Origin: Salinimicrobium profundisediminis
Lineage (GTDB): Bacteria; Bacteroidota; Bacteroidia; Flavobacteriales; Flavobacteriaceae
Direction of reading: 5' to 3'
DNA: 49,279 nucleotides
Assembly (NCBI RefSeq): GCF_026241755.1
Contig: NZ_JAPJDA010000029.1
Coordinates: 1 to 49,279, forward strand
Of the stretch, positions 7,757 through 39,886 are shown in pieces. The notes below the pieces were generated by a model. The model made no database searches. It was not told the origin of the DNA and saw only the letters and a program-made list of their open reading frames with translations. The first letter of the stretch is position 1; each line of letters starts with the position of its first letter. The translations under genes and the position numbers were made by a program.

Positions 7757-7783
7757 GGTGTCAAAAATGGCATTTTTGGCACC
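7757..7783. repeat. CAAAAATGNCATTTTTG palindrome, copy a (best conserved)
   Basis: The left arm GGTGTCAAAAATG (7757-7769), central G, and right arm CATTTTTGGCACC (7771-7783) form a 13-bp inverted repeat with a single T/G difference. It is the fullest copy of a family also found at 11984, 15157, 32124, 33451 and 39866. It lies about 165 nt downstream of the LpxH-like stop. Confidence 0.75.
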
Positions 7784-7948
7784 TCTGTAAATTTATATTT
7801 CCCCTAAAAATTCTGAAATTTTCACCAGTAATTCTCCTGAAGCCAGAAAAGATTTAGCCCCAATTTTCTTCGGAAGAAATTCCTTCCGAAGATCAAACTA
7901 AGCATGTGTAGATGATTATTATCCTAAAACTGATGTAAAAGGAGTGTG

Positions 7949-8722
7949 TTACTTCTGAAGGTTTTCATTTTTCCACTCTTTAAGCTGAAGTTCTTTACCA
8001 TCAAAAACTCCGTAAGTGTAGAAATTGATCCAATCTCCCAGGTTCATATAGGTAGCATCTTTCTGAAGACTGATATCTAAAGGCAGGTGGCGGTGACCAA
8101 AAATAAAGTAATCGTAATGTTGTGTTTCCAGCTTTCGGCGGCAGTATTGAATAAGCCATTCCTTTTCTTCTCCCAAAAACTGCACATCCTCTTCTCCCGA
8201 AATAGCCTTGTTCTTCACCGAAAAGTACTGCGCCAAAGGCACGCCCAAATCGGGATGCAGCCACCTGTACAGCCATTTTGAAAGCGGATTGGTAAATACC
8301 TTTTTCATGCGCTTGTAACCTTTATCTCCCGGCCCCAGCCCGTCACCGTGACCAATAAGGAACTTTCTGTCATTGAAAACAAACTCCTTCGGCTTTCTGA
8401 ATACGGGGATATCTAGTTCCTTTTCAAAATAATCATCCATCCAGAGATCATGGTTACCTACAAAGAAATATACAGGAATGCCCCGGTCCCTCAACTGGGC
8501 TAATTTTCCCAATGTTCGCACAAATCCTTTTGGAACCACATGTTTATACTCAAACCAGAAGTCGAACAAATCTCCCAGAAGAAAAATAGCTGCAGCATCC
8601 TGGCTTACGTGCTCAAGCCAGGCCACGAAATTTGCTTCCCTGGGGCGACTTTCTTCGGCCGTTGGTGCTCCCAGGTGATTGTCACTTGCGAAATAGATCT
8701 TTTTACCCTCGGGTATCTGCAT
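7949..8722 (-). CDS. lpxH: UDP-2,3-diacylglucosamine diphosphatase (LpxH-like metallophosphoesterase)
   Basis: 257 residues with the calcineurin-like phosphoesterase motif set: SDNHLG (13-18, metal-binding Asp14 and His16), GDLFDFW (50-56), GNHD (89-92), GHGDG (124-128) and FGHRHLP in the C-terminal third. The FDFWFEY pattern and overall length match LpxH, which cleaves UDP-2,3-diacylglucosamine to lipid X in lipid A synthesis at the inner membrane. The first motif reads DNH rather than DxH with a small residue, seen in Bacteroidota homologues. The gene stands alone and is divergent from the dioxygenase gene at 8852. The alternative is a general phosphoesterase, but the motif context favours LpxH. 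Confidence 0.85.
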   Translation of the reverse strand: MQIPEGKKIYFASDNHLGAPTAEESRPREANFVAWLEHVSQDAAAIFLLGDLFDFWFEYKHVVPKGFVRTLGKLAQLRDRGIPVYFFVGNHDLWMDDYFEKELDIPVFRKPKEFVFNDRKFLIGHGDGLGPGDKGYKRMKKVFTNPLSKWLYRWLHPDLGVPLAQYFSVKNKAISGEEDVQFLGEEKEWLIQYCRRKLETQHYDYFIFGHRHLPLDISLQKDATYMNLGDWINFYTYGVFDGKELQLKEWKNENLQK

Positions 8723-8851
8723 GCTAAGGATTTGCCGGTAAAGATAGTTTTAAAATTTCCGAAGTTAAAATCTTCAGAAAAATTGCCATCCCACGGCGCT
8801 GTGCTTGGGCATTTTATTAATTAAAAGTATCTTTAAAAGAAACAGATAATA

Positions 8852-9802
8852 ATGAGCCAGCTAGTTACCGGAATACATCATGTCACTGCACTTGCGGGTG
8901 AGCCGCAGAAAAATCTCGATTTCTATACAGGGATTTTGGGGCTGCGCATGGTCAAGAAAACAGTGAATTTTGATGCCCCCGATGTTTACCACTTTTATTA
9001 TGGCGATGAGCAGGGCCGGCCAGGATCTATCATGACCTTCTTCCCCTACGAAGGGATCCAGAAAGGCCGCCATGGAAAGGGTATGCTCAACATCACCACA
9101 TTTTCGGTGCCTGCAAATTCTCTTCTGTTTTGGGAAGAGCGTCTTAAAAAGTTCAATATCGACTTTAAACCTGCGCAGGACAGGTTTGATGGCGAGGCGG
9201 TAATTTATTTTGAAGATCCCGACGGGCTGGGGCTGGAGCTGGTTTTTAATGAGCGCGACGACAGGCCGGGATGGACCTATGGGCAAATTCCGATGGAGCA
9301 TTCCATCCGCGGGTTCTACAGCGTAGAAATATGGCAGGAAGGTTATGAACGCACTGCAGGTTTACTGCAGGAAGTTCTTGATCACAAATTAATTGCCGAA
9401 AAAGGAAATCGCTTTCGCTTTGCGGCTACAGATGCACCGGGAAATTACGTAGACATTCTATGCAGACCCGATGCATTGCGGGGCCTTGGCGGCGGCGGCA
9501 CGGTACATCACCTTGCTTTTTCTACAGCAAATAAAGAAAGTCAGTTAGGGGTTAGGGAGAAGCTGGCCAGTTCGGGTTATAACCCCACGCCGGTATTAGA
9601 TCGCCAATACTTTGAATCTATTTACTTCAGGGAACCCGGAGGCGTTTTATTTGAAGTAGCCACAGCCGAACCCGGTTTTGCCATTGATGAACCGCAGGAT
9701 ACGCTGGGGCAGGAGCTTAAACTTCCGCCGCAGTATGAATCGCGCAGGGAACTGATAGAAAAAGCCGTAAAACCGGTAAACCTCAACCCTTCAAAATTTT
9801 AG
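8852..9802 (+). CDS. mhqO: Ring-cleaving dioxygenase of the VOC/glyoxalase superfamily (MhqO-like)
   Basis: 316 residues with two vicinal-oxygen-chelate modules. The first begins VTGIHHVTALAG (about 5-16), and the second contains GTVHHLAFST (about 215) and GVLFEVATAEPGF (about 265). The histidines in GIHH and TVHH and the Glu in LFEVA are the expected Fe(II) ligands. Homologues such as Bacillus MhqO, MhqA and MhqE respond to hydroquinones and quinones. The carboxylesterase gene starts 2 nt after its stop, the same pairing as mhqO-mhqD, which supports the assignment. The actual substrate is unknown. The near-consensus box TATCTTTA at 8828-8835 could be its promoter. Confidence 0.82.
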   Translation: MSQLVTGIHHVTALAGEPQKNLDFYTGILGLRMVKKTVNFDAPDVYHFYYGDEQGRPGSIMTFFPYEGIQKGRHGKGMLNITTFSVPANSLLFWEERLKKFNIDFKPAQDRFDGEAVIYFEDPDGLGLELVFNERDDRPGWTYGQIPMEHSIRGFYSVEIWQEGYERTAGLLQEVLDHKLIAEKGNRFRFAATDAPGNYVDILCRPDALRGLGGGGTVHHLAFSTANKESQLGVREKLASSGYNPTPVLDRQYFESIYFREPGGVLFEVATAEPGFAIDEPQDTLGQELKLPPQYESRRELIEKAVKPVNLNPSKF

Positions 9803-9804
9803 AC

Positions 9805-10452
9805 ATGTTACACCAAAAAGATTTCAAGTATAACGGAACTCCTCTAAAAGATGCAAAAAAAGCACTTATCATGGTGCATGGCAGGGGCGGCTTTGCCGAA
9901 GATATCCTGGCAGTGGCCGATCATCTTAAAATAGAAGATTTTGCCCTGGTTGCGCCACAGGCTTATAACAACAGCTGGTACCCGCTCTCTTTTATGGCCC
10001 CGGTACAACAAAATCAGCCGTGGCTGGATTCGGCTGTAGAGATGCTTCAGCTTTTGGAAAAGGAACTCAACGATGAGGGCATAGCTTCAGAAGATATCTA
10101 TTTCTTCGGATTTTCACAGGGTGCCTGCCTTACGCTCGAGTATGTAACGCGAAATGCCAAAAGGTACGGCGGGGTAATTGGGATTATTGGCGGACTTATA
10201 GGCAAAGACATCAACACCGGAAATTACCTTACAAATTTTGAAGGCACGCCGGTTTACCTAGGCACCAGCGATCCCGATGCGCACGTACCTGCCGAAAGGG
10301 TGCAACAAACTGCAGATATTCTAAGGAACAAAAATGCACAGGTGGAGCTACAAATTTTCCCCGATGCCGGGCACGTGATCTTACCTGAGGAACTGGGCCG
10401 GGCCAATAATTTTATCTTCGGGTATTCGGGGATGAAAAATGAAAAACCTTAA
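9805..10452 (+). CDS. mhqD: Phospholipase/carboxylesterase, MhqD-like alpha/beta hydrolase
   Basis: 215-residue serine hydrolase of the carboxylesterase 2 family. The oxyanion region is MVHGRGGFAEDIL (23-35), the nucleophile Ser104 lies in GFSQGA (102-107), an Asp is in the GTSDPDAHVP stretch and the His is in DAGHVIL. No signal peptide. It follows the dioxygenase by 2 nt and is surely co-transcribed; the combination resembles the hydroquinone-detoxification cassette regulated by MhqR in Firmicutes, although no regulator gene is nearby here. Its last four bases overlap the end of queD on the other strand. Confidence 0.85.
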   Translation: MLHQKDFKYNGTPLKDAKKALIMVHGRGGFAEDILAVADHLKIEDFALVAPQAYNNSWYPLSFMAPVQQNQPWLDSAVEMLQLLEKELNDEGIASEDIYFFGFSQGACLTLEYVTRNAKRYGGVIGIIGGLIGKDINTGNYLTNFEGTPVYLGTSDPDAHVPAERVQQTADILRNKNAQVELQIFPDAGHVILPEELGRANNFIFGYSGMKNEKP

Positions 10453-10901
10453 AGGTTATCTGAAGCATACCATTCGGCATAAGAAGTCTCGGTCTCCTGT
10501 AATTTCAGGGAGAAAAGCTTAATATGCTCTGGCAGGCGGCTCATTATTCTTTCAGCAAAATCCTGGATCATATTCTCACTGGTAGGTTGGTATTCAACAA
10601 GAATGATGTTGTGGCCTCTCTTTTGTAATTCTTCTGCCAGCTCAACATGAGGCGTGTTCTTGTTAAAAACAGTAGCATGATCAAATTTATCAACGATCTC
10701 CTGTTTTACAATTTTTTTGAGGTCACCAAAGTCTATGACCATTCCCAGCTTCACGTTATCCTCATCTTTTATGGGCTCTCCCTGCACTGTTACCCCTAAT
10801 TTATAACTATGCCCGTGCACGTTCTTACACTTGCCGTCATAGCCAAAAAGGGCGTGGCCTGCCTCAAAAGAAAATTGTTTGGTGATGCGAATAGTTGCCA
10901 T
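10449..10901 (-). CDS. queD: 6-carboxy-5,6,7,8-tetrahydropterin synthase
   Basis: 150 residues of the PTPS/QueD family. The zinc ligands are His16 in SFEAGH and His29 and His31 in VHGHSY, and the catalytic Cys25 lies in DGKCKNVHGH. The pterin-anchoring Glu is in LKLQETETSYAEW, and PTSENM is the family signature. With Cys in this position it fits QueD (queuosine/7-deazaguanine pathway) rather than a eukaryotic-type PTPS. The rest of the queuosine pathway is not in the window. Its stop overlaps the mhqD stop tail to tail. Confidence 0.93.
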   Translation of the reverse strand: MATIRITKQFSFEAGHALFGYDGKCKNVHGHSYKLGVTVQGEPIKDEDNVKLGMVIDFGDLKKIVKQEIVDKFDHATVFNKNTPHVELAEELQKRGHNIILVEYQPTSENMIQDFAERIMSRLPEHIKLFSLKLQETETSYAEWYASDNL

Positions 10902-10915
10902 ACTTTAATTTTGGG

Positions 10916-10923
10916 CAAAGATA
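10916..10923 (-). promoter_or_regulatory. -7 box of the queD promoter
   Basis: TATCTTTG on the minus strand (10923-10916) is a perfect match to TAnnTTTG, 14 nt upstream of the queD ATG, implying a very short leader. No clear -33 TTG was seen at the standard spacing. Confidence 0.5.
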
Positions 10924-11012
10924 GAGCTTGGCTACACGAAATTTAACTATTCAGCCTAAAAAATTATAAATCTTTGCTTTGAAGACCACGTAAAAAATGG
11001 GAAATTCAAACG

Positions 11013-11020
11013 TACATTTG
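11013..11020 (+). promoter_or_regulatory. -7 box upstream of the 2OG-Fe(II) oxygenase gene
   Basis: TACATTTG matches TAnnTTTG and is followed by CACG; it lies 13 nt before the ATG at 11034. It faces away from the queD promoter, so the 132-nt region is a divergent promoter pair. Confidence 0.5.
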
Positions 11021-11033
11021 CACGCCTAAAATA

Positions 11034-11660
11034 ATGACATTGGAAATTATAGAGAACCCGGTTTATGAAAAGATCATTACAGATCTTTCTGAGCAGCAAT
11101 ATTCTATTGTTGAAGATTTCTTCAGCCCCGAAGAAGTCCTGGAGCTGCGCAATTCCCTGCTGCACAAATATGAAGAAGACAACTTCAAAAAGGCTGCGAT
11201 AGGAAACCGAACCAATGAAATTATAGCAAAATCTATTCGCGGGGATTTTATTCTATGGTTAAATGAAGCTGAAGCAGCACAAGCCGAAAAAGCCTTTTTT
11301 AGAAGGATCAACGATTTTGTAGATTACCTTAACCGCACCTGCTTTACCGGCATTCTACACAAAGAATTCCATTATGCGCTATATCCCGAAGGCACCTTCT
11401 ATAAACGACACCTGGACACCTTTCAAAATGACGACAGGCGAAAACTCTCTATGGTGTGTTACCTCAATGAGCAGGACTGGCAGCCAGAGTATGGAGGAGA
11501 ACTTGTTATTTATAACAATGAAAATGGCGTGGAAGTTCCAAAAAGTATTTACCCTTTCCCCGGAAGAATGGTCATTTTTGAAAGCCAGATCCTGGAGCAC
11601 GAAGTAAAACCGGTAAAAACCGAAAGACTGAGCATTACAGGCTGGTTGAAGACCCGCTAA
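11034..11660 (+). CDS. 2OG-Fe(II) oxygenase (prolyl 4-hydroxylase-like)
   Basis: 208 residues. The iron triad is His126 and Asp128 in KRHLDTFQ and His189 in ILEHEV; Arg198 in TERLSITGW should bind the 2-oxoglutarate carboxylate. The double-stranded beta-helix core runs from about residue 112 to the end, including CYLNEQDWQPEYGGELVIY. This is the prolyl-hydroxylase-like family that uses O2 and 2-oxoglutarate to hydroxylate proteins or small molecules; the target here is unknown. It has its own promoter and ends 3 nt from a convergent micro-ORF. Confidence 0.85.
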   Translation: MTLEIIENPVYEKIITDLSEQQYSIVEDFFSPEEVLELRNSLLHKYEEDNFKKAAIGNRTNEIIAKSIRGDFILWLNEAEAAQAEKAFFRRINDFVDYLNRTCFTGILHKEFHYALYPEGTFYKRHLDTFQNDDRRKLSMVCYLNEQDWQPEYGGELVIYNNENGVEVPKSIYPFPGRMVIFESQILEHEVKPVKTERLSITGWLKTR

Positions 11661-11663
11661 AAC

Positions 11664-11792
11664 CTACTTCCTGAATTTTTTATACAATACCACCACGATT
11701 AACAAAATTGCGAGGAGCAGCCAAAAGCCATAGCCGCTTAAAAACCTGAGCAGGTCAAAAGTTTCCTCATTTACGGGGAGATCTTCCTGCAT
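11664..11792 (-). CDS. Micro membrane protein, 42 aa (third of three)
   Basis: ATG at 11792-11790 and TAG at 11666-11664 give 42 residues: an acidic N-terminus (MQEDLPVNEETFD), one membrane helix (FWLLLAILLIVVVLY, about 23-37) and a basic tail, KKFRK. The ATG overlaps the stop of the preceding gene as TAATG, a strong sign that both are translated. By the positive-inside rule the tail is cytoplasmic. No family recognised. The tail of the gene lies 3 nt from the convergent oxygenase gene. Confidence 0.6.
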   Translation of the reverse strand: MQEDLPVNEETFDLLRFLSGYGFWLLLAILLIVVVLYKKFRK

Positions 11793-11968: not shown

Positions 11969-11983
11969 ACTGCCTGCATTTTA

Positions 11984-12007
11984 GGTGTCAAAAATGACAT
12001 TTTAGCT
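11984..12007. repeat. CAAAAATGNCATTTTTG palindrome, copy b
   Basis: GGTGTCAAAAATGACATTTTAGCT (here described by its core CAAAAATGACATTTTAG) has a full left arm and a decayed right arm. It overlaps the stop codon (12004-12002) of the 59-aa micro-gene, which reads into the repeat. Confidence 0.6.
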
Positions 12008-12181
12008 GATGCTTTTTTTCTTTCTGAAGAAAGCAAGATAAAGAATAACAGCCAGAATCACCACGGCTGCGGTCACTACTTCCCAAAAATTAGAACCTAC
12101 AAAATAACCTACTTCATAGCCTACCTGGAAAGCTTTTGTTTTCTCTATCTCCTGAAAGAGCACTACATTCATTAATTCCAT
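12002..12181 (-). CDS. Micro membrane protein, 59 aa (first of three)
   Basis: The likely start is the ATG at 12181-12179, one base after the stop of the enoyl-CoA hydratase gene, giving MELMNVVLFQEIEKTKAFQ. A longer frame from 12253 would run through the hydratase gene and is not credible. The 59 residues have one helix, FWEVVTAAVVILAVILYLAFF (about 33-53), and a basic end, RKKKSIS. Together with the next two genes it forms a run of three small single-pass proteins coupled to the hydratase gene. No family recognised. Confidence 0.6.
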   Translation of the reverse strand: MELMNVVLFQEIEKTKAFQVGYEVGYFVGSNFWEVVTAAVVILAVILYLAFFRKKKSIS

Positions 12182-12182
12182 A

Positions 12183-12950: not shown

Positions 12951-13001
12951 TTTTTTATTCTTTCCCGTAAAGTTACATTTTTTATTTTCAGTCCTGTATC
13001 T

Positions 13002-14327
13002 CTAGGTTTCTTTGTACAAATATTTCCTGCGGAATTTTATCACCAGCGCACTGCTTCTAATAAGCATCCATACAAAGAAAGCGATCCAGATGGCGTGGAG
13101 TTTTAATCCGAAGTAATCGCCTATGAGCAGCGCCGGGGTAAAACCAAGAAAGGTAGCTGCCAGCAACACATTCCGAAGATATTTTGCTTCCCCCAGCCCT
13201 TTAAATATTCCGTCGAACATAAAAGCAATGGCATTCACTGGCTGCATGAACAGTACCATCCAGAAAACAGAAGTGAACAGCAGCAGCACAGGCGCTTCTT
13301 TGCTGAAGATCAACCCTATTTCTTCATAAAACAGCGCACAAATCCCGATTAAAAAAACAGCGATGATGACAGAATATTTGCTGATCTTTTTGCTCAACTG
13401 CCATAAGCCATTGTAATCCCTTGCTCCCAGGAGTCGGCCGCCCATGGCATTTCCGGCATTGGCATAGCCATCAATAAAGAAACTGAAAAAGAGCCAGATG
13501 TTCATGAGGATACTCTGGGCAGCAATATAGTTTTTACCGTAATCTGTCGCATAGGCATTAGCCAGGTAAATGGCGAAATTTAAAGCCGCAGTACGCACAA
13601 AAAGGTTGCCGCTCATTAAAAGCAGGGCTTTCATCTGCGGATTGATGGTGCGGCTAAGGCCCAGGTGAAAAGGCGTTTTTTTAAAGAAAAAATACAATGC
13701 CATGACCAGCATGACCAGTTGCGCAATAACACTGGCATAAGCGGCGCCTTCAAGATGCATGGCGGGAATCCAGCCCTCTATGCCATAAACCAGCATAAAA
13801 TCGAGGCCCACATTTAGAACCGCGCCGGTGAGACTGCATTTCATGGCCCACAACGTGTTTTGGAGCCCACGAAAAACACCAAAGAGAGCGAAGGTGACCA
13901 GGGTGAGTGGGTAGCCTATCGCACGAATTTGATAATAATCGGCAGCATAATTCAAGACCTTTCCTTCAGCATTATAAGCGCTAAAGATCGCGGCAGCAAA
14001 GTAGGCTGTCACGGCATAGATCAACAGACTAAGTAAAAAGTTAAAAAAAATAGCTTGTGGTACCAGTGTTTTAACTGCATGAATGCGGTTTGCACCAAAA
14101 TGCTGTGACACCAAAGCCGAAATAGCGGTTTTAGTTTGGGCTACGATCCAGATAATAGCCGAAAGAAATGAACCAACAATTCCTGCTGCGGCAAGAGCTT
14201 CAACAGGATCCTGGTCTACATTACCAATAATGGCAATATCGGTTAAGGAGATAAGAGGTTCTGCAATGCCTGCGATTATTGCAGGAATTGCAAGCCGATT
14301 GATATTTTTGAAGTTCACTACAGCCAT
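13002..14327 (-). CDS. MATE family efflux transporter
   Basis: 441 residues, about twelve membrane helices in two homologous halves, the usual length for the DinF branch of the MATE family, which exports drugs or metabolites in exchange for Na+ or H+. The N-terminal half starts AIPAIIAGIAEPLISLTDIAIIG, here seen as the conserved P-x-I and SLTDIAIIG pattern of helix 1-2; QHFGANR in loop 2-3 and GYPLTLV are further family landmarks. Its ATG overlaps the stop of the upstream acetyltransferase gene (TAATG), so the two are translationally coupled; an acetyltransferase-exporter pair would suit detoxification, an inference only. Confidence 0.9.
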   Translation of the reverse strand: MAVVNFKNINRLAIPAIIAGIAEPLISLTDIAIIGNVDQDPVEALAAAGIVGSFLSAIIWIVAQTKTAISALVSQHFGANRIHAVKTLVPQAIFFNFLLSLLIYAVTAYFAAAIFSAYNAEGKVLNYAADYYQIRAIGYPLTLVTFALFGVFRGLQNTLWAMKCSLTGAVLNVGLDFMLVYGIEGWIPAMHLEGAAYASVIAQLVMLVMALYFFFKKTPFHLGLSRTINPQMKALLLMSGNLFVRTAALNFAIYLANAYATDYGKNYIAAQSILMNIWLFFSFFIDGYANAGNAMGGRLLGARDYNGLWQLSKKISKYSVIIAVFLIGICALFYEEIGLIFSKEAPVLLLFTSVFWMVLFMQPVNAIAFMFDGIFKGLGEAKYLRNVLLAATFLGFTPALLIGDYFGLKLHAIWIAFFVWMLIRSSALVIKFRRKYLYKET

Positions 14328-14830
14328 TACTTTATCACTTTTTCATAGCAGTAGAAAGGGGCTTCACTTTGCTTCGGAAAATAAATATTCCCCAGCCTTT
14401 TGTAGCCCCGGGCTTCGTAAAATTTTTGATTTCGCTGGTTCTGGCTGAAGGTATCCAGTCTTACTGAATCATAGTTGTGCTTACGGGCAAAATCTTCAGC
14501 AAAATCCATAAGCCTACGCCCATGCCCGCTGCCCCACTTCTGCGGATTGGTAGCCAGGCGGTGTACGTAAAGATTATTGCCGCTGGGGGTGAGCCATGCT
14601 ATAGGCAGGTACTCTTCATCTATGGTAGGCGTCAAAACAATAATCCCCTCAATCTCTCCCTCTTCTTCAAGCACATACAATTCCTCCTGTAAAATGTCAT
14701 TTTTGAGCCGCTCTAAAGAAGGATAAAATTCATTCCACTGCAGGATCCCTTTTTTCTGCATGGCGTGGGCACAGGCTTCGGTGAGGCTTTTAATGGTCGC
14801 TAAGTCCTGGTATTTGGCTGTTCTTATCAT
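14327..14830 (-). CDS. GNAT family N-acetyltransferase
   Basis: 167 residues from the ATG at 14830 (MIRTAKYQDLATI), which is the usual GNAT beginning; an in-frame ATG 21 nt upstream adds an unlikely MWRSLSN. The acetyl-CoA loop reads NPQKWGSGHGRRLMDFAE, matching the R/QxxGxG/A pattern, and the C-terminal NQKFYEARGYKRLG is the typical beta 6 region. Substrate unknown. First gene of a two-gene unit with the MATE exporter. An intragenic TAAAATGNCATTTTTGAGC stretch (14691-14709) relates to the dispersed palindrome family. Confidence 0.85.
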   Translation of the reverse strand: MIRTAKYQDLATIKSLTEACAHAMQKKGILQWNEFYPSLERLKNDILQEELYVLEEEGEIEGIIVLTPTIDEEYLPIAWLTPSGNNLYVHRLATNPQKWGSGHGRRLMDFAEDFARKHNYDSVRLDTFSQNQRNQKFYEARGYKRLGNIYFPKQSEAPFYCYEKVIK

Positions 14831-15026: not shown

Positions 15027-15061
15027 GTTTTCGGGTGTTCCTAACTGCTTAGCGTATATAA

Positions 15062-15094
15062 AGACCTCACAGGTTTTCAAAACCTGTGAGGTCT
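15062..15094. repeat. REP-like palindrome, copy 1
   Basis: AGACCTCACAGGTTTT (15062-15077), C, then its exact reverse complement (15079-15094): a perfect 16-bp inverted repeat around one base. It lies between the tRNA terminator and the 3' end of the convergent hydrolase gene. A second perfect copy is at 40499-40531 and a decayed one at 32405-32438. Confidence 0.85.
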
Positions 15095-15156
15095 ACAGTT
15101 ATGTCGGGTAAGTTATCTGATAGGTCATGGTACGATCAATTAACCTTGACTAAAAC

Positions 15157-15185
15157 ACCTTCCAAAAATGCCATTTTTGACAGGT
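15157..15185. repeat. CAAAAATGNCATTTTTG palindrome, copy c
   Basis: A perfect core, CAAAAATG-C-CATTTTTG (15063-equivalent core at 15163-15179), with ACCT (15157-15160) and AGGT (15182-15185) as outer flanks. It touches the stop codon of the hydrolase gene (15187-15185). Confidence 0.7.
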
Positions 15186-16036
15186 TACTTTTTAATGAAT
15201 TCAGTAGCTTTTTTTATGATCTTCTCCATGGCCGGCGGGAGGTCTTCGCGTTCCCACGGATGTGAAGCCTCAAAAACATGATCGCTGCCATCAAGTAGGA
15301 ACAACTCCGATTGTGATGACCATTCATGCAATTGACGGGCGTTATCTACAGCAACTGTAGGATCATTGGTGCCGTGAACCACGAGATAGGGAATATTGAG
15401 CTTTTCCGCCGACCTGGCGATATTCAGTCGCTCTTCATTTTGTTTAAAATCTTCGTAAAAGTCGAACAGGTGCGGCATTTTCTGCTTGGTGCGGGAATTT
15501 TCTATATAAGAGATTCCTTTTTGTTTCCAGGCCTCCAGTTCTTCCCCTTTTGGAAAGCGGTCTTCAAAGTCACTAACTGCTGCAAGAGTAATGAGCTTTT
15601 GGATACGGGGGTCTTCAGCAGCTTTAACCACCGCAATACCTCCGCCGCGGGAGTGGCCCATCAAAGTGAGACGGGAAAGATCGTCCCGGTTAGCGTAAGG
15701 GAAATCTTCACTGCTTATCCAGTCAATTAAAACTTTAAGATCATCGAGCTCTTTGGTGTACGTGTTCTCTCCAAAAGCGTCTAAATCGGGGAAATCTATA
15801 GGGTTTTCAAGAGTGCCGCCATTGAAGGCAAAATTAAACTTTACGAACAGGAAGCCATTTTGGGCAAATGCGGTTGCCATCAGGTTCCAGGCGCCCCAGT
15901 CTTTGAAGCCTTTATAACCATGACAGAACAATACTACCGGTTTCTGCCCCTCTTCTTCCGAAGAAAATACATCTGTTGGAATTGGCCGCCCGTGCAGGCC
16001 CGGAAGGCTTATATTCTTTTGCTTTTTTACTACCAT
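15185..16036 (-). CDS. Alpha/beta hydrolase (dienelactone-hydrolase/acyl-peptidase-like)
   Basis: 283 residues. VVLFCHGYKGFKDWG (about 34-48) is the oxyanion region, the nucleophile Ser lies in LMGHSRGGG, an Asp in VVHGTNDPTV and the His in DGSDHVFEASHP. No signal peptide, so cytoplasmic. The substrate is unknown; relatives include esterases and peptidases. The start codon overlaps the end of the AddB-like gene by 7 nt, so it is probably the last gene of that transcript. The stop touches palindrome copy c. Confidence 0.85.
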   Translation of the reverse strand: MVVKKQKNISLPGLHGRPIPTDVFSSEEEGQKPVVLFCHGYKGFKDWGAWNLMATAFAQNGFLFVKFNFAFNGGTLENPIDFPDLDAFGENTYTKELDDLKVLIDWISSEDFPYANRDDLSRLTLMGHSRGGGIAVVKAAEDPRIQKLITLAAVSDFEDRFPKGEELEAWKQKGISYIENSRTKQKMPHLFDFYEDFKQNEERLNIARSAEKLNIPYLVVHGTNDPTVAVDNARQLHEWSSQSELFLLDGSDHVFEASHPWEREDLPPAMEKIIKKATEFIKK

Positions 16037-18857: not shown

Positions 18858-20249
18858 TTACATTCCGCCCTGATTATCTCTCATCTCTTTTTCTTTATCT
18901 AAAGATATCTCTACCCTTCTGTTTTCCTGTCTTCCTTTAGCAGTGCTGTTAGAAGCGATTGGTTGAGATTCACCATATCCTTCAGAAGTTAATCTGCTAG
19001 AAGGAATACCAGTGTTTTCAAGGAAAGTTTCTACAGATTGTGCTCTTTCTCTGGATAGTTTTTCATTGTAAGATTCACTACCAGTGCTATCTGTGTGTCC
19101 TCCAATATGGAAAATTGTGTTAGGATATTCTTTCATGATATCGGCGATAGCCTGAAGAGTTTCTTCTGACTCAGATCTAATTGTAGCTTTATCAAGATCG
19201 AAAAGAATAGTTCTTGAGTATTCATTCAATTCTTCGATTACCTCTACAGTTGGTTCAGGACATCCGTTGTTTGCAGCAGTTCCTGCTACTTCTGGACATT
19301 CATCATCTTTGTCTAGCACTCCATCGTTATCCATATCTTCCCATGGACATCCGTTGTTTTCTTTTGGACCTGCTTCGTTTGGACATTCGTCCTCGCTATC
19401 TTTAACTCCGTCACCATCGGCATCTGGACATCCGTTCAATGCAGCAAGACCGGCTACAGTAGGACATTCATCCTGAGGATCGGCAATACCATCACCGTCT
19501 GTATCTGGGCAACCGTTAAATTGTGCAAGACCTGCTTCATTAGGACATTCGTCCAACCTGTCCTGTATCCCGTCACCATCAGAGTCAGGACAACCGTTGA
19601 ATTGTTCTAATCCGGCTACTTCAGGACACTCATCATCCTTATCGTAGATACCATCTCCGTCAGTATCCTGTCCTCCAAAGGCAAACTTAATTCCTGCTGC
19701 GTGTTGGAAGTGAGAGTTCATATCATCGTCAAATCCATGCTTGTAGATAGTTTGGACTGAAAGGGCAAGATTATCTGTAAACCAGAAATTGAAACCTACA
19801 GTTCCATCAAGAGTTGCGAAGCCTTCTTCGTCAATCCAGGTGTAACCCCCACCAACTCCCACAATAGGATCTAACCAACCTGCGTTGGCGTCATTACGAA
19901 AGCTGTAGTTGAAGGTACCGTCAAGACCGTAATACATTAGGTCATCCCATCCTTCATCTCCATATTTACCGATTTGGTTAACCGAACCAGCTGCTTCAAA
20001 ATAGAACCCTGCGCCAATGTTACGGGCAACAGAGATTCTAGAAATACCTGCAAGTACATTCCAGTGATCTCCGGTGTTGAAGAATTCATCAAAATACCCC
20101 CCTAGAGGTGCGTCTTCACCTGTAGGATAAAAATCCACTGCGTTTACTCCTATTCCAATAGCCCATGGATTATTGTCATCCTGCGCCTGCATAGTGCTGA
20201 AGCTCAGAATGCATAGTGAAGCCAATAATAATCTGTTTAGATGTTTCAT
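18858..20249 (-). CDS. OmpA-family outer-membrane protein with thrombospondin type 3 repeats
   Basis: 463 residues. A signal peptide (about 1-22, ending MQA) is followed by an eight-stranded beta-barrel-like region (about 23-190) with WNVLAGISR, FNYSFRN and NFWFTDNLALSVQ strands. Five tandem repeats of about 27 residues (about 195-335) follow the pattern DxDGDGhxDxxDECP...NGCP and should bind Ca2+, with paired cysteines. The C-terminal OmpA domain (about 345-455) has FDLDKATIRSESEETL, GGHTDSTGS and LSRERAQSV, which hold it to peptidoglycan. A typical abundant flavobacterial porin-like or structural protein. It has an excellent promoter and its own terminator, so it is monocistronic. Confidence 0.95.
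   Translation of the reverse strand: MKHLNRLLLASLCILSFSTMQAQDDNNPWAIGIGVNAVDFYPTGEDAPLGGYFDEFFNTGDHWNVLAGISRISVARNIGAGFYFEAAGSVNQIGKYGDEGWDDLMYYGLDGTFNYSFRNDANAGWLDPIVGVGGGYTWIDEEGFATLDGTVGFNFWFTDNLALSVQTIYKHGFDDDMNSHFQHAAGIKFAFGGQDTDGDGIYDKDDECPEVAGLEQFNGCPDSDGDGIQDRLDECPNEAGLAQFNGCPDTDGDGIADPQDECPTVAGLAALNGCPDADGDGVKDSEDECPNEAGPKENNGCPWEDMDNDGVLDKDDECPEVAGTAANNGCPEPTVEVIEELNEYSRTILFDLDKATIRSESEETLQAIADIMKEYPNTIFHIGGHTDSTGSESYNEKLSRERAQSVETFLENTGIPSSRLTSEGYGESQPIASNSTAKGRQENRRVEISLDKEKEMRDNQGGM
19258..19680 (-). repeat. Five tandem coding repeats (thrombospondin type 3)
   Basis: About 81-84 nt per unit, with shared blocks encoding DGDG, DECP and NGCP. The units are in frame inside the OmpA-like gene. 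Copies differ mostly at third positions and in the AG-rich linker (EVAGLEQF, NEAGLAQF, TVAGLAAL, NEAGPKEN, EVAGTAAN), so they are old duplications that could still vary by recombination. Confidence 0.8.
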
Positions 20250-31693: not shown

Positions 31694-32122
31694 ATGGCAT
31701 TCTTTAAGGATTTCAAGGCTTTTCTAATGAAAGGCGACATTATTGCCCTTGCTACCGCCGTGGTTGTAGGAGGTGCTTTCAATAAAATAGTTTCTTCTGT
31801 GGTAGCCGATATCATCATGCCTCTCATAGGTGTTATTACTGGGGGAGTTGATTTCTCACAAAAATTCATTTCTCTTGACGGTAACGAATATGAAAGCCTG
31901 GATGCCGCAAAAGAAGCCGAAGCCGCAGTGCTCACCTACGGCAATGTTATTCAGGCTATTATTTATTTTGTGATTGTGGCCTTCTTTATTTTCCTGGTTT
32001 TACGGGCTTATGAAAGAACCAAGACTGCGAAAGAAGCTCCAAAAGTCACTGAACCTAAAGGCCCTTCACAGGAACAGCTACTTACCGAAATTCGGGATGA
32101 ATTAAGGAAAAAGAACAGCTAA
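31694..32122 (+). CDS. mscL: Large-conductance mechanosensitive channel
   Basis: 142 residues. The amphipathic N-helix and first membrane segment read [19 protein letters not shown], and [23 protein letters not shown] holds the family signature (seen as [13 protein letters not shown] and [12 protein letters not shown]); TM2 is [18 protein letters not shown] (about 93-110). The C-terminal bundle is acidic/basic and ends DELRKKNS. It opens as a pentamer when the membrane is stretched by osmotic downshock. The gene has its own short upstream gap (36 nt after alr). Palindrome copy d begins 2 nt after its stop. Confidence 0.95.
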
Positions 32123-32123
32123 A

Positions 32124-32146
32124 GATGCCATTTTTCGCGCCTGTGT
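32124..32146. repeat. CAAAAATGNCATTTTTG palindrome, half copy d
   Basis: ATGCCATTTTTCGCGCCTG retains the right arm (CATTTTT plus a decayed GRCACC), with little left arm. It begins 2 nt after the mscL stop codon. Confidence 0.4.
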
Positions 32147-32377: not shown

Positions 32378-32404
32378 TATAAAATATCAGGACGAGCAGG
32401 AAAT

Positions 32405-32438
32405 GGAGCCTTACAGGTTTCCGAAGCCTGTGAGGTCT
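32405..32438. repeat. REP-like palindrome, decayed copy 3
   Basis: The right arm GCCTGTGAGGTCT (32426-32438) is nearly identical to the right arm of the perfect copies at 15062 and 40499; the left arm (around CTTACAGGTTTC, 32410-32421) has several changes. It lies 15 nt before the asd start codon, inside the presumed leader. Confidence 0.6.
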
Positions 32439-32453
32439 TTAAATCACTATAGC

Positions 32454-33443: not shown

Positions 33444-33450
33444 AATATGA

Positions 33451-33474
33451 GGTGCCAAAAATGGCATTTTTGAA
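33451..33474. repeat. CAAAAATGNCATTTTTG palindrome, copy e
   Basis: GGTGCCAAAAATG (33451-33463), G, CATTTTTGAAG: a perfect 8-bp core and a decayed right flank. It begins 7 nt after the asd stop. Confidence 0.7.
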
Positions 33475-33486: not shown

Positions 33487-33519
33487 AAAGGCTGCATATT
33501 TCTTGTGCAGCCTTTCTTA
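33487..33519 (+). terminator. Terminator of asd
   Basis: AAAGGCTGCA (33487-33496) and TGCAGCCTTT (33506-33515) form a 10-bp stem with a 9-nt loop, followed by a short pyrimidine run. Confidence 0.7.
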
Positions 33520-35743: not shown

Positions 35744-35763
35744 TTTTTGTTCAGACCTTTTTA

Positions 35764-35895: not shown

Positions 35896-35935
35896 ATTAT
35901 TAAAGCTCTAATTTTACAGCCTTAACCAAACGAAG

Positions 35936-36904
35936 ATGCTAAAGGTCAAAAACCTTTCTTTTGCTTATGGAGCCAAGCCGGTGTTAAAGAACCTCAGCTT
36001 TAACATCCAAAAAGGGGAAAATATATCAATCATTGGCGCCAGTGGATGCGGTAAAAGCACCCTGCTCCAGTCCCTTTATGGACTTCATGATGTAAAAGGA
36101 AAGATCTTCTGGAAAGAAAAGCAGTTGCTGGGGCCCAATTTCAACCTCGTTCCCGGCGAAGATTTCATGAAATACCTCACGCAGGATTTCGACCTGATGC
36201 CACCATTGACAGTAGCCGAAAATGTGGGCAAACATCTCTCCAACGCCTACCCCCGTAAAAAACAGCAACGGGTAAACGAGCTTCTCGCTTTGGTAGAAAT
36301 GAAGGAGCTGGCAAAAACAAAGGCAAAGTTCCTGAGTGGAGGCCAACAACAGCGGGTAGCACTGGCAAGAACCCTCGCAAATCCTCCTGAAGTTTTACTC
36401 CTGGATGAACCCTTTAGCCATATTGATCATTTCAGAAAGAACAAACTGCGCAGGAACCTCTTTAGCCACCTGAAAGCAACGGGCACTACCGTAATGCTGG
36501 CTACTCACGACAGCACAGATGCACTTTCTTTTGCCGACAAGACCATTGTAATGAAAGCCGGAAGGATTATAGCTATGGGATCGCCCACAGAACTTTATAA
36601 TAACCCGCCAAATGCCTATGTTGCTTCCCTGTTTGGAGACGTAAATGAACTCCCGGCTTCCCTCTTCTTTGACGATCAACCAGTACGCAAGAAGGTAATT
36701 CTCTACCCTCACGACATACATTTGACAGCATCGGGCAGGTATCAGGGGGTAGTCAAAAATGTGTTTTTTAAAGGAAGTTTTTTTCTTACTGAAGTTGAAA
36801 TAGAAGGAACTTCAGTTTTCGTGGAACACCCGGAAGGCCTGGAAAATGGCAAATCTGTTCGCTTACAAATCGAACAGGATCTACTTGAAAAAAGGTTAGG
36901 CTAA
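35936..36904 (+). CDS. ABC transporter ATP-binding protein with a C-terminal TOBE-like domain
   Basis: 322 residues. Walker A GASGCGKST (34-42), the Q-loop YLTQDF, the signature LSGGQQQRVALARTL (about 133-147), Walker B VLLLDEPFSHID and H-loop ATHD. The domain ends near 235 and is followed by about 85 residues that resemble TOBE beta strands (YQGVVKNVFFKGSFFLTEVEIEG, visible as GVVKNVFFKG and LTEVEIEG). This is the layout of MalK/PotA/ModC-type import ATPases. No permease or binding protein is adjacent, so it is an orphan subunit and its substrate is unknown. The start ATG at 35936 gives MLKVKNLSFAYG, the standard N-terminus. Confidence 0.88.
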   Translation: MLKVKNLSFAYGAKPVLKNLSFNIQKGENISIIGASGCGKSTLLQSLYGLHDVKGKIFWKEKQLLGPNFNLVPGEDFMKYLTQDFDLMPPLTVAENVGKHLSNAYPRKKQQRVNELLALVEMKELAKTKAKFLSGGQQQRVALARTLANPPEVLLLDEPFSHIDHFRKNKLRRNLFSHLKATGTTVMLATHDSTDALSFADKTIVMKAGRIIAMGSPTELYNNPPNAYVASLFGDVNELPASLFFDDQPVRKKVILYPHDIHLTASGRYQGVVKNVFFKGSFFLTEVEIEGTSVFVEHPEGLENGKSVRLQIEQDLLEKRLG

Positions 36905-36957
36905 GTGAGAATTTGTTCCGAAGAAATTATGCAATTCAGAAATGCAGATATTTACCT

Positions 36958-37410
36958 TTAGAAAATTTCTTCTATTTGTAATTCCCTGCCATTAAACGTC
37001 ACGCTACTTCCCTTCTTTTTTCCCATAAATATTTGTGCTATTGGAGCACCTACCCCTACAGTATAATATTTCTCATTGTCCACACTAATTTCACCGGCAG
37101 GAATGGCAATAAAATAATTGGCCACTGTAGTTTTCACGATACTTCCAAAACCTGCTACATTCCCCGTACTACCTGTGGGGACTTCCTTAAGCGTTCTTTT
37201 AAGCCTTTTAAAACCTTCGGCCTGGTTTGCCACTTTCTCAAATTCGAGGTGCAGCATAGCCCTTTCGGTCTCATATTTATCGCCCATAGAGCATTTGGTC
37301 TCCAGTTTTAGAGCAGCTTCAAGATCGTCTATGACATGCTGTACGGTTTCGATCTTTTTCTCTACGTAAGCAGCGCAGGCTTCAATCAACTTTTCTTTTA
37401 TTTCAGACAT
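36958..37410 (-). CDS. GreA/GreB-like transcript cleavage factor family protein
   Basis: 150 residues. An N-terminal helical coiled coil (about 1-75, including EKLIEACAAYVEKKIETVQ) is followed by a compact beta domain (about 85-150): AGFGSIVKTTVANYFIAIPAG, then YYTVGVGAPIAQIFMGKKKG and GRELQIEEIF. The C-terminus is the FKBP-like GreA/GreB fold (PIAQIFMGKKKGSSV resembles the SPIGRALIGKKVGDxV motif). These factors rescue stalled RNA polymerase. The coiled coil lacks an obvious DE acidic tip of true Gre factors, so an alternative anti-pausing role is possible. The gene is convergent with the ABC gene. Confidence 0.65.
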   Translation of the reverse strand: MSEIKEKLIEACAAYVEKKIETVQHVIDDLEAALKLETKCSMGDKYETERAMLHLEFEKVANQAEGFKRLKRTLKEVPTGSTGNVAGFGSIVKTTVANYFIAIPAGEISVDNEKYYTVGVGAPIAQIFMGKKKGSSVTFNGRELQIEEIF

Positions 37411-37458
37411 TTTTTCTTTGCTGTTATTTTAATGTCAAAGCCTCAATCAGGAAGTTTT

Positions 37459-38010
37459 TTAAAATCTCTTGCCAACTGTAAGGCCAAATCTGGGATAAGC
37501 AACGCTTATATTATCTGAACCTAAAAAGTTTCTTCCAGCTCCTCCAAAAACTTCAAACACCCATCCACTTTCAGTCATAAATTTTGATCCTACCGCAAGA
37601 CCTATCCCTGCACCTATTTCATTTTCAGTTTTAACTTCGTAAGTACTCCCGTTATAGTAGGTGTATTCTTCATCATCTACTACGTAAAAGGCCGCATTCC
37701 CCTCCACAAAAAATCCGGCAGCAGGTTTTTTACCAAAATAGATCCTGTAATAGGGAATAGCCATAAAATCAATTTCTATATCATCTATAGAAAAGTTAAC
37801 AGAAATACCCAAAGCAGACTCATCATTCAAAATTCGCTCGTAGCTAAGCTCGGGGAAACCAATGAGCAAATACATTCCATTTAATTTTAATTCGTTTTTA
37901 CCGGAATAAGGTACCTGCTCGTGTGGGGTAGCTATTTCTTCAGTCTCCTGGGAATATCCATGAAAACAAAACAACATGGATATTAATAATAGAGGTAGTA
38001 TTCTGTTCAT
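37459..38010 (-). CDS. Small outer-membrane beta-barrel-like protein
   Basis: 183 residues with a signal peptide (MNRILPLLLISMLFCFHGYS, cleavage near 20). The mature part is rich in alternating hydrophobic/polar strands (LNGMYLLIGFPELSYERIL, YRIYFGKKPAAGFFVEGNAAF, WVFEVFGGAGRNFLG) and ends with a long strand, AYPRFGLTVGKRF, whose final Phe is the usual BAM recognition residue. This is typical of the eight-strand OMP family of Flavobacteriaceae. It likely sits in the outer membrane; specific role unknown. No partner gene. Confidence 0.7.
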   Translation of the reverse strand: MNRILPLLLISMLFCFHGYSQETEEIATPHEQVPYSGKNELKLNGMYLLIGFPELSYERILNDESALGISVNFSIDDIEIDFMAIPYYRIYFGKKPAAGFFVEGNAAFYVVDDEEYTYYNGSTYEVKTENEIGAGIGLAVGSKFMTESGWVFEVFGGAGRNFLGSDNISVAYPRFGLTVGKRF

Positions 38011-38081
38011 TGATTGCTGATTTTAAATTGAGTAAATATAATTTTATTTGGTCCTGTTTTTTTGGAATGTCTTAAATTCTA

Positions 38082-38747
38082 TTAAAGCTCAATTTTTCCG
38101 AGATTCCTCATTTGCCTCACAATCCAGCTCTTCCTGCCCCCAATGTAACTGCTGGCAGGATTCGCCCTGTATTCCCGAGGATTTGGGAGTATGGCTGCAA
38201 TGGCAGCGGCTTCATAGGCGGTAAGGTTCTCTGCACTCTTTTTAAACCAGGCTTGAGCAGCAGCTTCGGCGCCATAAACGCTTTTGCCCATTTCTATGCT
38301 GTTAAGGTAAACCTCAAGAATGCGCTCTTTACTCCACAAAAGTTCTATCCAAAAGGTAAAATAAACTTCCAGGCCTTTTCTAAACCAGCTGCGCTGTGGC
38401 CATAGAAAAACGTTCTTGGCAGTTTGCTGCGAAATAGTGCTGGCGCCCCTTACTCTTTTCCCTTTTTTATTGTCTTCCATGGCCTTTTGAATCGCTTTAT
38501 AGTCAAACCCATTGTGACTGGGGAAATTTTGATCTTCACTGGCAATCACTGCCAGCTTCAGGTTGTCAGAAATCTCCTCCATGGGCACCCAATCATGTTT
38601 TATGTCTTCATCAGGATTTTCAAAGTACCTGATGACCATTAACGGAGTAAAGGGTACCGGCACCCACTTATAGACCACAACCATAAATATGCTGAAGAGA
38701 AACAATCCCAGCACCAGTTTCAGTAAAAACCTGAAAAATCTTTTCAT
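38082..38747 (-). CDS. mtgA: Monofunctional biosynthetic peptidoglycan transglycosylase
   Basis: 221 residues. An N-terminal membrane anchor (about 8-28, FLLKLVLGLFLFSIFMVVVY region) precedes a GT51 domain. The catalytic Glu is in VIASEDQNFPSHNGFDYKAI, here given as ASEDQNFPSHNG; GASTISQQTAKNVFLWPQRSW (seen as GASTISQQTAKN) and LEVYLNSIEMG are the other family boxes. It polymerises lipid II into glycan strands without a transpeptidase domain. It is followed by the FAD enzyme gene 2 nt upstream on the same strand and is probably co-transcribed with it. Confidence 0.93.
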   Translation of the reverse strand: MKRFFRFLLKLVLGLFLFSIFMVVVYKWVPVPFTPLMVIRYFENPDEDIKHDWVPMEEISDNLKLAVIASEDQNFPSHNGFDYKAIQKAMEDNKKGKRVRGASTISQQTAKNVFLWPQRSWFRKGLEVYFTFWIELLWSKERILEVYLNSIEMGKSVYGAEAAAQAWFKKSAENLTAYEAAAIAAILPNPREYRANPASSYIGGRKSWIVRQMRNLGKIEL

Positions 38748-38749
38748 TT

Positions 38750-39865
38750 TTATTCAATTAGATCGGCCAGTTCTTTTCCTACGAGACTGCCAATTGCTAT
38801 ACCCATTCCGCCTAAACGCACTCCGCAGAACACGTGTTTCGAAACTTTTTTAACCACAGGTTTCTTCTGTTCCCCCATGCCCATTATTCCGCTCCACCTT
38901 CTTTCGATCTTATAAGGAGTATCGGGTAAAATGACATTTTTGAGCAAGCTTTCAAGCCGCTGTTGCACCAGTGCCGTCAATGCCATTTCGGTGGTTTCTT
39001 CTCCTTTAAGGTTGAGGTTCCTGCCTCCGCCCAGCAGAATCCTATCGTTAATATTTCTGAAGTAATAAAAACCTTTTTCAAGGTGAAAAGTGCCTTTTAG
39101 ATGAAGGTTGGGAATAGGAGCTGTGATCAACACCTGTGCCCGGGCCGGCTTAACCTCTGGAATGCCCAGTTGTGAAGCAAAGCCATTGGTGGCAATAAGC
39201 AAATTCCCGGTGTAAAAACTAAAATGTTCTGTTTCTACTTCTACGGAATCATCTACTTCAGCAAAACCATTTACGGTAACCGAATTGAGGATCTTCACGC
39301 CGGCTGCCTGCACCTTCTGAAGCAGGGCACTCATCATTTTCCCGGTATCAAGCTGGCCTTCAAATTTATTGTAGATCAGGCTGTTATCTACTTTTGCAAA
39401 TCCGAATTTATTATTGGTTATGCTGAAGACATCCTCTCCAAAAATGGGGTTTAGAAGGCTGTTTATTTTTGCCATTTTTGACACACAAGCTTCAAAGAGA
39501 TCTTCTTCGGCTGCAGTAAATAGTTCATATCCGCCATTTACCTGCAAATCAATACCATCACTATTCAAAGTTCTTTTGAGTAGATCAAGCCCCTGTACCC
39601 GTTTTCTCACCAGTTCTACCATCTCTTCTTCGGAATGATGCTGCAGGTCGTCCAGAATTTCGCTAAGGCTTCCAAAAGCAGCAAAACCCGCATTTTTTGT
39701 ACTAGCACCATTGGGTAGAAGTCCTCTTTCGAGGATTACCACCTTTGCTTCGGGATAACGGGTTTTTAATTGCAGGGCGCAGGTAAGTCCGGTAATCCCG
39801 CTGCCAACAATGGTAAAATCAATATTAGAAAACCAGGAATCGTGTTCCCAAAAAGAAAAGCTCAT
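38750..39865 (-). CDS. FAD-dependent oxidoreductase of the DAO family
   Basis: 371 residues. The dinucleotide-binding motif IVGSGITGLTCALQL lies at about 20-34 and VILERGLLPNGASTKNAGFA (seen as ILERGLLPNGAS) follows. The middle holds KFEGQLDTGKMMSAL, and the C-terminus has FCGVRLGGMGIAIGSLVGKELA, with GVRLGGMGIAIG closing the FAD site. The family oxidises amino groups or sarcosine-like substrates, or works in tRNA modification (MnmC C-terminal domain type); the exact substrate is unknown. Intragenic copies of the AAAATGNCATTTTTG palindrome occur at 38928-38946 and 39469-39484. Palindrome copy f begins 1 nt upstream of its start codon. Confidence 0.82.
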   Translation of the reverse strand: MSFSFWEHDSWFSNIDFTIVGSGITGLTCALQLKTRYPEAKVVILERGLLPNGASTKNAGFAAFGSLSEILDDLQHHSEEEMVELVRKRVQGLDLLKRTLNSDGIDLQVNGGYELFTAAEEDLFEACVSKMAKINSLLNPIFGEDVFSITNNKFGFAKVDNSLIYNKFEGQLDTGKMMSALLQKVQAAGVKILNSVTVNGFAEVDDSVEVETEHFSFYTGNLLIATNGFASQLGIPEVKPARAQVLITAPIPNLHLKGTFHLEKGFYYFRNINDRILLGGGRNLNLKGEETTEMALTALVQQRLESLLKNVILPDTPYKIERRWSGIMGMGEQKKPVVKKVSKHVFCGVRLGGMGIAIGSLVGKELADLIE

Positions 39866-39886
39866 AAAAATGCCATTTTGTAGCCA
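39866..39886. repeat. CAAAAATGNCATTTTTG palindrome, copy f
   Basis: AAAAATGCCATTTTGTAGCC has a 6-7 bp symmetric core. It starts 1 nt before the ATG of the FAD enzyme gene and ends 4 nt from the stop codon (39892-39890) of the secreted-domain gene. Confidence 0.55.

Follow-up and report, generated by a model that had tools for sequence, protein, structure and literature searches.

The stretch of DNA analysed here, henceforth the window, comprises 49,279 nucleotides of Salinimicrobium profundisediminis (contig NZ_JAPJDA010000029.1) and carries, at gene ends and within genes, copies of a short palindrome with the core CAAAAATGNCATTTTTG. The initial annotation had named six such stretches; all six are present, and the best of them (7757-7783) has the 13-nt arms with a single change that were ascribed to it. 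Allowing up to three mismatches, we found nine copies of CAAAAATGNCATTTTTG in the window against 1.02 expected (standard deviation 0.98), a number that none of 100 shuffles reached. Four of these are strong (exact cores at 7762, 15163 and 33456, and a core with one mismatch at 11989), while three had been overlooked, namely the two-mismatch copies within genes at 14689 and 38926 and a three-mismatch copy at 36754. The copies, together with a hairpin that follows one of them, are listed below; the palindrome itself is given without a strand.

7757..7783, no strand: intergenic palindrome copy with an exact core and 13-nt arms carrying a single change
11984..12007, no strand: palindrome copy with 1 mismatch, overlapping the stop codon of a called 59-aa open reading frame (ORF) at 12002-12181(-)
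14689..14705, no strand: 2-mismatch copy in gene 14327-14830(-)
15157..15185, no strand: palindrome copy, exact core, touching the stop of an alpha/beta hydrolase gene at 15185-16036(-)
32120..32146, no strand: half copy with 3 mismatches at the mscL stop; may be chance
33451..33474, no strand: palindrome copy, exact core, whose 17-mer begins 12 nt past the asd stop
33487..33515, plus strand: separate terminator-like, GC-rich hairpin (-18.2 kcal/mol) downstream of the asd palindrome
36754..36770, no strand: 3-mismatch copy in gene 35936-36904(+); may be chance
38926..38942, no strand: 2-mismatch copy in the FAD oxidoreductase gene 38750-39865(-)
39865..39886, no strand: copy with 3 mismatches, flanked by the 39890-40273(-) stop codon and the 38750-39865(-) start codon; may be chance

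The placement at stop codons that had been described holds for the window copies, except that the copy at 39866 also touches the start codon of 38750-39865(-). For the copy at 7757, the closest boundaries of called genes are 144 and 170 nt away. We compared the window's own genome (G000; 4.04 Mb in 101 contigs) with 11 other genomes of the genus (G001 to G011), two of which are incomplete (G001, 74%; G008, 75%). A copy is retained at the place of 11984..12007 in G009 and G006, and at that of 15157..15185 in G009.

Genome-wide, the palindrome is far more abundant than base composition would predict, a result that, like the enrichment near stop codons described below, withstands the check set in the initial annotation. 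Exact CAAAAATGNCATTTTTG occurs 192 times in G000 and the reversed pattern, counted in the same genomes as a control for abundance, 0 times; with up to two mismatches the counts are 698 and 9. At the latter threshold there are 683 copies in G009, 410 in G007, 382 in G005, 361 in G004, 357 in G010, 325 in G008, 323 in G011, 316 in G006, 112 in G002, 43 in G003 and 2 in G001, with 2 to 11 for the reversed pattern across the 12 genomes. Ten genomes are therefore referred to as motif-rich (316 to 698 copies in nine of them, 112 in G002). Exact copies are present in 10 of the 11 other members of the genus (e.g., 140 in G009, 55 in G004 and a single one in G003, with 0 in G001). The palindrome is confined to this one genus: exact matches were found in none of 48 relatives outside it and in 11 of 393 other genomes of the family, one copy in each. 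The genus is very likely Salinimicrobium and the family Flavobacteriaceae: the closest named match to the window's Asd comes from a Salinimicrobium MAG (87% identity, L082), whose sequence downstream of asd equals that of G008. The one strict 25-nt pattern searched in viral contigs gave 0 matches. An Rfam scan of the window and five loci returned one match, a transfer RNA, and no family for the palindrome; the word is also absent from the literature searched, which covered few subscription journals. Both results agree with the earlier remark that this is not a described family.

Architecture and placement were studied in a 1.64-Mb sample made up of 840 kb of G000 (window included) and 800 kb of G009, two close relatives, so that the two parts are not independent. 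Here CAAAAATGNCATTTTTG is the most over-represented palindrome with 7-nt arms (129 occurrences against 0.48 expected), present in 79 exact, 116 one-mismatch and 130 two-mismatch copies; controls were simulated with order-3 and order-4 Markov chains, and of the three order-3 runs one gave a single exact match by chance. The half-sites CAAAAATG and CATTTTTG occur 79 times at an offset of 9 and at most twice at any other offset between -60 and 119, meaning that no alternative spacing in this range is enriched. Beyond the 13-17-bp core, position preferences reach about 14 bp on either side, reading inwards A S S T B Y C and then AAAAATG, with A-rich stretches farther out. Single mismatches fall chiefly at positions 7 and 8 from the centre, and in genes at position 2 too. 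Preferences of the two half-sites are largely independent and the centre base is free, which, together with the fixed spacing, suggests a putative dimeric reader.

With respect to genes, the copies are strongly biased. Genes were called with a codon-usage caller (722 genes covering 89.5% of the 840 kb, some with wrong starts). About 89% of random positions lie within genes, compared with 87 of the 195 copies with at most one mismatch: 22 of the 79 exact copies are in called genes and 57 in gaps, and of the 116 one-mismatch copies 65 are genic, 50 fall in gaps and 1 lies on a contig edge. A stop codon is no more than 20 nt away for 17.9% of the 195 copies against 3.5% of random positions, a five-fold excess, and no more than 50 nt away for 38.5% against 8.3%; the excess near starts is weaker (7.7% of copies within 20 nt against 3.2%). 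The association with stop codons that had been claimed from the window thus extends across the genome, but as so many copies lie in called genes it is a strong bias and not a rule. In tandem gaps, 46 of 64 copies are closer to the upstream stop than to the next start. When gaps of at least 20 bp were considered, copies with up to two mismatches were present in 40 of the 130 gaps between convergent genes, 87 of the 608 tandem gaps and 18 of the 179 divergent ones. Copies in genes are unequally distributed over the reading frames (50, 30 and 7 of 87). Along the single contig of G009, spacing is near-random (coefficient of variation 1.12 for the 136 listed of 140 exact sites) and counts are lower in the first megabase from dnaA (the contig begins with a gene whose sequence reads like DnaA), with no clear replication-arm or terminus domain for exact sites.

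Two side observations concern copies inside genes. The palindrome's ATG coincides with the start codon called for the gene at 15 of the 183 gene sites (giving MTFL, MAFL, MPFL and the like), although some of these starts may be wrong. One gene of G000 (contig C4, 22256-25867), the start of which reads like a heavy-metal ATPase, contains, as does its G009 counterpart, two copies 291 nt apart that apparently belong to an internal repeat.

The outer arms bear on whether the palindrome acts in RNA or in DNA. Among gene copies (up to two mismatches) we counted 388 outer-arm pairs against 395.5 in shuffles, i.e., no co-variation, and on the sense strand 223 G.T against 230 A.C combinations, i.e., no G-U signal. 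It therefore seems to be double-stranded DNA that is read, and an RNA hairpin was rejected as the general role. Convergent gaps differ: 146 outer-arm pairs were found there against 86.8 in shuffles, a value reached by 0 of 1000 shuffles. In convergent gaps, 41-nt segments fold with a median energy of -10.2 kcal/mol, compared with -7.0 to -7.6 for tandem gaps and -5.9 for genes, and 15 of 34 convergent copies fold at -12 kcal/mol or below. A stable hairpin followed by a U-run, as in an intrinsic terminator, was found in a subset of the convergent copies and not in the family overall. The 3' hairpin or weak terminator proposed in the initial annotation accordingly fits the convergent intergenic subset, with its co-varying arms and stronger folds, and fails for the gene copies, tandem copies showing a small excess. 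These findings are most simply explained by a site in double-stranded DNA that has in part become a terminator-like hairpin between converging genes.

Comparisons between species indicate how copies change. A counterpart in G009 could be aligned for 35 of 104 G000 sites; the two species differ there by substitutions and by a few gaps of 1-3 bases, and no element-sized gap was seen, the alignments having required a match that spans the site, so that empty sites could escape detection. When queries were taken from both species, 34 gene sites showed a core identity of 0.965 and 31 intergenic sites one of 0.960, compared with 0.80-0.86 in the flanks and 0.645 at the centre base of intergenic sites. 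Gaps within the orthologous 17-mer occur at 0 of the 34 gene and 3 of the 31 intergenic sites, one base each. More distant comparisons, in which some loci were counted from both queries, gave 21 aligned sites for G002, 14 of them coding, and 23 for G006, 15 of them coding. Eight of the 14 coding sites are free of gaps over 41 nt in G002, where the copy has 2-8 mismatches, as are 12 of the 15 in G006, with 0-4 mismatches. In genes, then, the word changes in place by substitution. We infer that these substitutions are gains within the clade, on the basis that the word is absent outside the genus rather than from site-by-site polarisation. Downstream of asd, between the stop and the separate terminator-like hairpin that follows the palindrome, the exact word is found in G000, G009, G004 and G008 and an altered one in G007 (one change) and G005 (two changes); no palindrome was seen at this place in G001, G002, G003, G006, G010 or G011.

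Considering these results together, we think it probable that the palindrome serves the Salinimicrobium clade as an address in double-stranded DNA, specific to this lineage, spread over the whole genome and with a putative symmetric, dimeric reader. A symmetric dimeric DNA-binding protein would read two half-sites (roughly ASSTBYC-AAAAATG) that face each other across one free base. Point mutation would create and erase copies at their positions, at least in genes, and copies would persist wherever the sequence permits, most readily after stop codons and least so in genes. Between convergent genes, the outer arms have also been shaped into bidirectional terminator-like hairpins. As to purpose, a label of self DNA for uptake or exchange and a nucleoid or chromosome-organising site are both possible, neither being probable, with other uses making up the rest. 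The family itself is real, large and clade-specific, and uptake and nucleoid organisation are the two leading readings of its function.

Several points weigh against this account. No reader protein was found for the palindrome, the binding of which is putative, and several hundred separately conserved sites are a lot for one structural protein. The direction assigned to the substitutions is presumed, and only 65 of 194 sites could be aligned across the site between G000 and G009. Intergenic copies behave less simply than those in genes: alignment required gaps in every one of the 7 intergenic comparisons made with G002 and in 7 of the 8 made with G006, and downstream of asd G002 has no palindrome and an intergenic stretch about 27 nt shorter, meaning that insertion or deletion is possible for intergenic copies. 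Finally, tandem gaps show a small excess of pairing (205 against 183.7, reached in 8 of 1000 shuffles; at most one mismatch), and a hairpin role is therefore possible at tandem intergenic copies.

The natural history of the palindrome appears most to resemble that of DNA uptake sequences (DUS), even though the tests agree with this only in part. Under this explanation, which we hold tentatively, DNA carrying the motif would be taken up preferentially, and the word would have spread and been maintained by biased exchange within the clade. As expected of such sequences, there are hundreds of clade-specific copies, with a core conserved amid variable flanks and a preference for permissive 3' gaps. 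The ratio of exact to one-mismatch copies (79:116, or 1:1.47) is DUS-like; PMC3630211 gives 1:1.15 and 1:1.45 for two Neisseria genomes, and also describes overlapping dyad-symmetric uptake sequences in Simonsiella. According to PMC2397512, DUS are strongly conserved although commonest at permissive sites within the core genome, a pattern that the conserved core and variable flanks of the palindrome resemble. Preference for own DNA has been described in Riemerella columbina, placed in the Flavobacteriaceae in that paper (PMC7965970). The restriction of gene copies by reading frame also suits this explanation.

Evidence from the uptake machinery is mixed. In each of the 10 motif-rich species the match to the ComEC family reads through without a break, comEC contains 3 sites with up to two mismatches in G000 and 2 in G009, and a broken remnant lies at the same place in G003, which has one exact copy. 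This pseudogene (locus L305, about 3733-4565) is spread over three frames and retains about 0.83 kb of 1.93 kb, with conserved neighbours on both sides. G001, which has no exact copy and is incomplete, gave only a weak match to a ComEC fragment. However, in a tree of asd (one gene, midpoint root, 6 of 13 inner branches weak), G003 groups with Christiangramia, Gillisia and Salegentibacter (support 100/98) and G001 is deepest, both falling outside the motif-rich clade; the link with ComEC hence amounts to at most one or two contrasts, which weakens the loss of comEC as a natural knock-out. ComEC is, moreover, common in other bacteria (10 of 14 control genomes), and the 5-kb comEC region of G004 has no site with up to three mismatches. 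A PilB/PilT/GspE-type ATPase (T2SSE family, the sole pilus family searched) exceeded the cut-off in 1 of 12 genomes, two of which are about 75% complete; that genome is G000, and none was found in single-contig G009 with its 140 copies, which counts against uptake. On contig C21 of G000 (L308), a type IV pilin-like protein, a T2SSE/PilB-type ATPase and a secretin-like protein lie in a row.

Uptake labels would be expected to be scarce in foreign DNA, for which low GC content served as a proxy: 62% of 32 species-specific genes have low GC, compared with 11% of 500 shared genes. In or beside the lowest-GC fifth of genes, with GC bins that were set after a first look at the data, coding sequences hold 7 sites with at most one mismatch against 13.3 expected and 9 two-mismatch sites against 15.4, and 3' intergenic regions hold 13 sites with up to two mismatches against 20.0. 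Taken singly, these tests reach only p values of 0.07-0.21, and the high-GC bins of genes are likewise below expectation for the closest copies. A direct test on species-specific genes, which has little power, showed no depletion (3 sites in 25 kb against 74 in 546 kb).

A further difficulty for an uptake label is that accessory DNA, in the form of integron-like cassettes of G002, is dense in sites. In this genome the palindromes cluster within attC-like repeats belonging to cassette arrays of low GC content, with 13 sites of at most one mismatch in the 15.1-kb contig C15 and 6 in the 10.2-kb contig C8. Copies with up to two mismatches were also found near an integron-like recombinase in G003, G005, G006, G007, G010 and G011. 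Regular expressions for a pair of attC-like arms found none in the G000 and G009 samples, and among 28 recombinase loci fetched outside the genus the sole clear attC-like repeat printed was without the palindrome. On both counts the cassettes look less like the source of the word than like another place where it may have accumulated.

The arrays themselves (G002 C15, loci L261 and L257; G002 C8, L262 and L256; G006, L272; G010, L270) consist of small ORFs on the same strand, mostly unknown, many of which are followed by an attC-like repeat of about 110-140 nt. In G006 and G010 they adjoin a tyrosine recombinase of about 390 aa. Four recombinases that were scanned scored 215.9-234.9 against NCBIfam NF040815, with a cut-off of 220, and below the cut-off of the integron-integrase family TIGR02249; matches at E <= 1e-60 were found in 65 of 149 genomes of the family, two of them from the genus. 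A complete Bacteroidetes integron is named in Salinibacter in the IntegronFinder 2.0 paper (PMC9024848). Cassette-like contigs L254 (G003 C31), L261 and L262 (both G002) have IS110-type transposase genes at one end, an assignment based on a Pfam match for L261:35-1000 and on similar sequence for the other two.

About as likely as an uptake sequence, and no less tentative, is a site for a nucleoid-associated or chromosome-organising protein, like those of MatP, SlmA or Noc. A symmetric site with one fixed spacing, distributed chromosome-wide at near-random distances, scarcer near starts than near stops and without an RNA signal in genes, is what such a protein might be expected to use. Against it, we found no candidate protein and no strong arm or terminus domain, the lower counts in the first megabase from dnaA being the only departure, and MatP-, SlmA- and Noc-type systems have far fewer sites. 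The nucleoid or segregation site suggested in the initial annotation is therefore compatible with the data, as one of the two leading readings, but has no protein to go with it.

An element acting at the 3' ends of transcripts, as an RNA hairpin or as a protein roadblock terminator, seems unlikely to account for the family. The excess near stops, the frequency of copies in convergent gaps and the co-variation and stronger folds seen there would all be explained. Nevertheless, the many copies within genes show neither co-variation nor a G-U signal, divergent gaps carry copies too, and 13 of 39 stop-proximal tandem copies already have a terminator-like hairpin of their own downstream.

Less probable again is that the word arises as a side effect of methylation or mismatch repair, an origin suggested for cyanobacterial HIP1, which according to PMC4390886 is likewise a lineage-specific iterated palindrome: the core of 13-17 bp and the outer preferences far exceed the 8 bp of HIP1.

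Least credible is a small mobile palindrome, a suggestion of the initial annotation that we consider very improbable and that comparison between species did not support; a repetitive extragenic palindromic (REP) element moved by a Y1 transposase would be an example. High copy number, palindromic form, restriction to the genus and the length difference beside asd in G002 would fit such an element, as would the presence of Y1 transposases in 9 of 12 genomes. But there is no element-sized gap at the 65 sites for which an alignment spanned the palindrome, copies in genes differ by substitution, and G004 has 55 exact copies and no Y1 match. At the 20 of 38 Y1 matches that had a locus and were examined, 18 copies with up to three mismatches in 65 kb represent ordinary density (262 in 840 kb), i.e., no link with Y1. 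Four of these loci (L063, L065, L072 and L073) do carry a pair of copies, separated by about 360 nt and situated 0.3-1 kb from the transposase; these copies occupy the end and the interior of adjoining host genes that four species share, and are not element ends. The Y1-type transposase gene itself is found there between the same host genes in G009, G000, G006 and G010, a shared place that would suit a domesticated transposase.

Two other repeats were noticed in passing. A second palindrome family, GACCTCACAGGTTTTNAAAACCTGTGAGGTC, is the next most over-represented in the 1.64 Mb (arms such as CAGGTTT, ACAGGTT and AGGTTTT occur 15-17 times) and is found in the window at 15060-15095, 32404-32439, 40497-40532 and 48189-48210. 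Five direct repeats with a spacing of 81-87 nt lie at 19255-19667, in gene 18858-20249(-).

Clade-specific words in hundreds of copies are rare, and the best understood of them mark DNA for uptake. The wide variation in copy number within the genus makes this palindrome a fresh system in Bacteroidota in which selection can be set against molecular drive. If it is a nucleoid address, it would lead to a new chromosome-organising protein, of which few are known in this phylum. A bolder and somewhat more doubtful proposal is that Salinimicrobium evolved its own uptake sequence independently of Neisseria and Haemophilus, one that would be palindromic over 17-29 bp, read by a dimer, used without a type IV pilus ATPase and also present inside attC-like cassette repeats. 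To our knowledge this would be the first in Bacteroidota and, if true, the gene cassettes of the genus would carry a self-recognition tag.

Compared with known systems, the palindrome shares traits with several and differs from each. Like intrinsic terminators, a subset of convergent copies folds into stems, some followed by T-runs, but most copies are weak or in genes, and some are trailed by a separate terminator. Like REP elements with their REP-associated tyrosine transposases (RAYT), it is a short palindrome in many, often extragenic, copies; unlike them, it shows no transposase link and no element-sized gap, and 87 of 195 copies lie in genes and change by substitution. HIP1 of cyanobacteria is likewise a lineage-specific, very frequent palindrome with no settled role, but it is 8 bp long, GC-rich and tied to methyltransferases, whereas the present word spans 17-29 bp, has an AT-rich core and is strongly intergenic. 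The sites of MatS, SlmA and Noc are also symmetric, genome-wide protein-binding words, from which the palindrome differs in having many more copies, no clear chromosome domain and no known protein. The differences from DUS of Neisseriaceae and uptake signal sequences (USS) of Pasteurellaceae are that the word is fully palindromic with one free centre base, occurs in Bacteroidota and on cassette DNA, and is accompanied by a pilus-type ATPase in only 1 of 12 genomes; its function in uptake is putative. With these two it nonetheless shares the most: hundreds of clade-specific copies in genes and gaps, a preference for permissive sites, terminator-like arrangements, a conserved core in variable surroundings and a similar ratio of exact to one-off copies.

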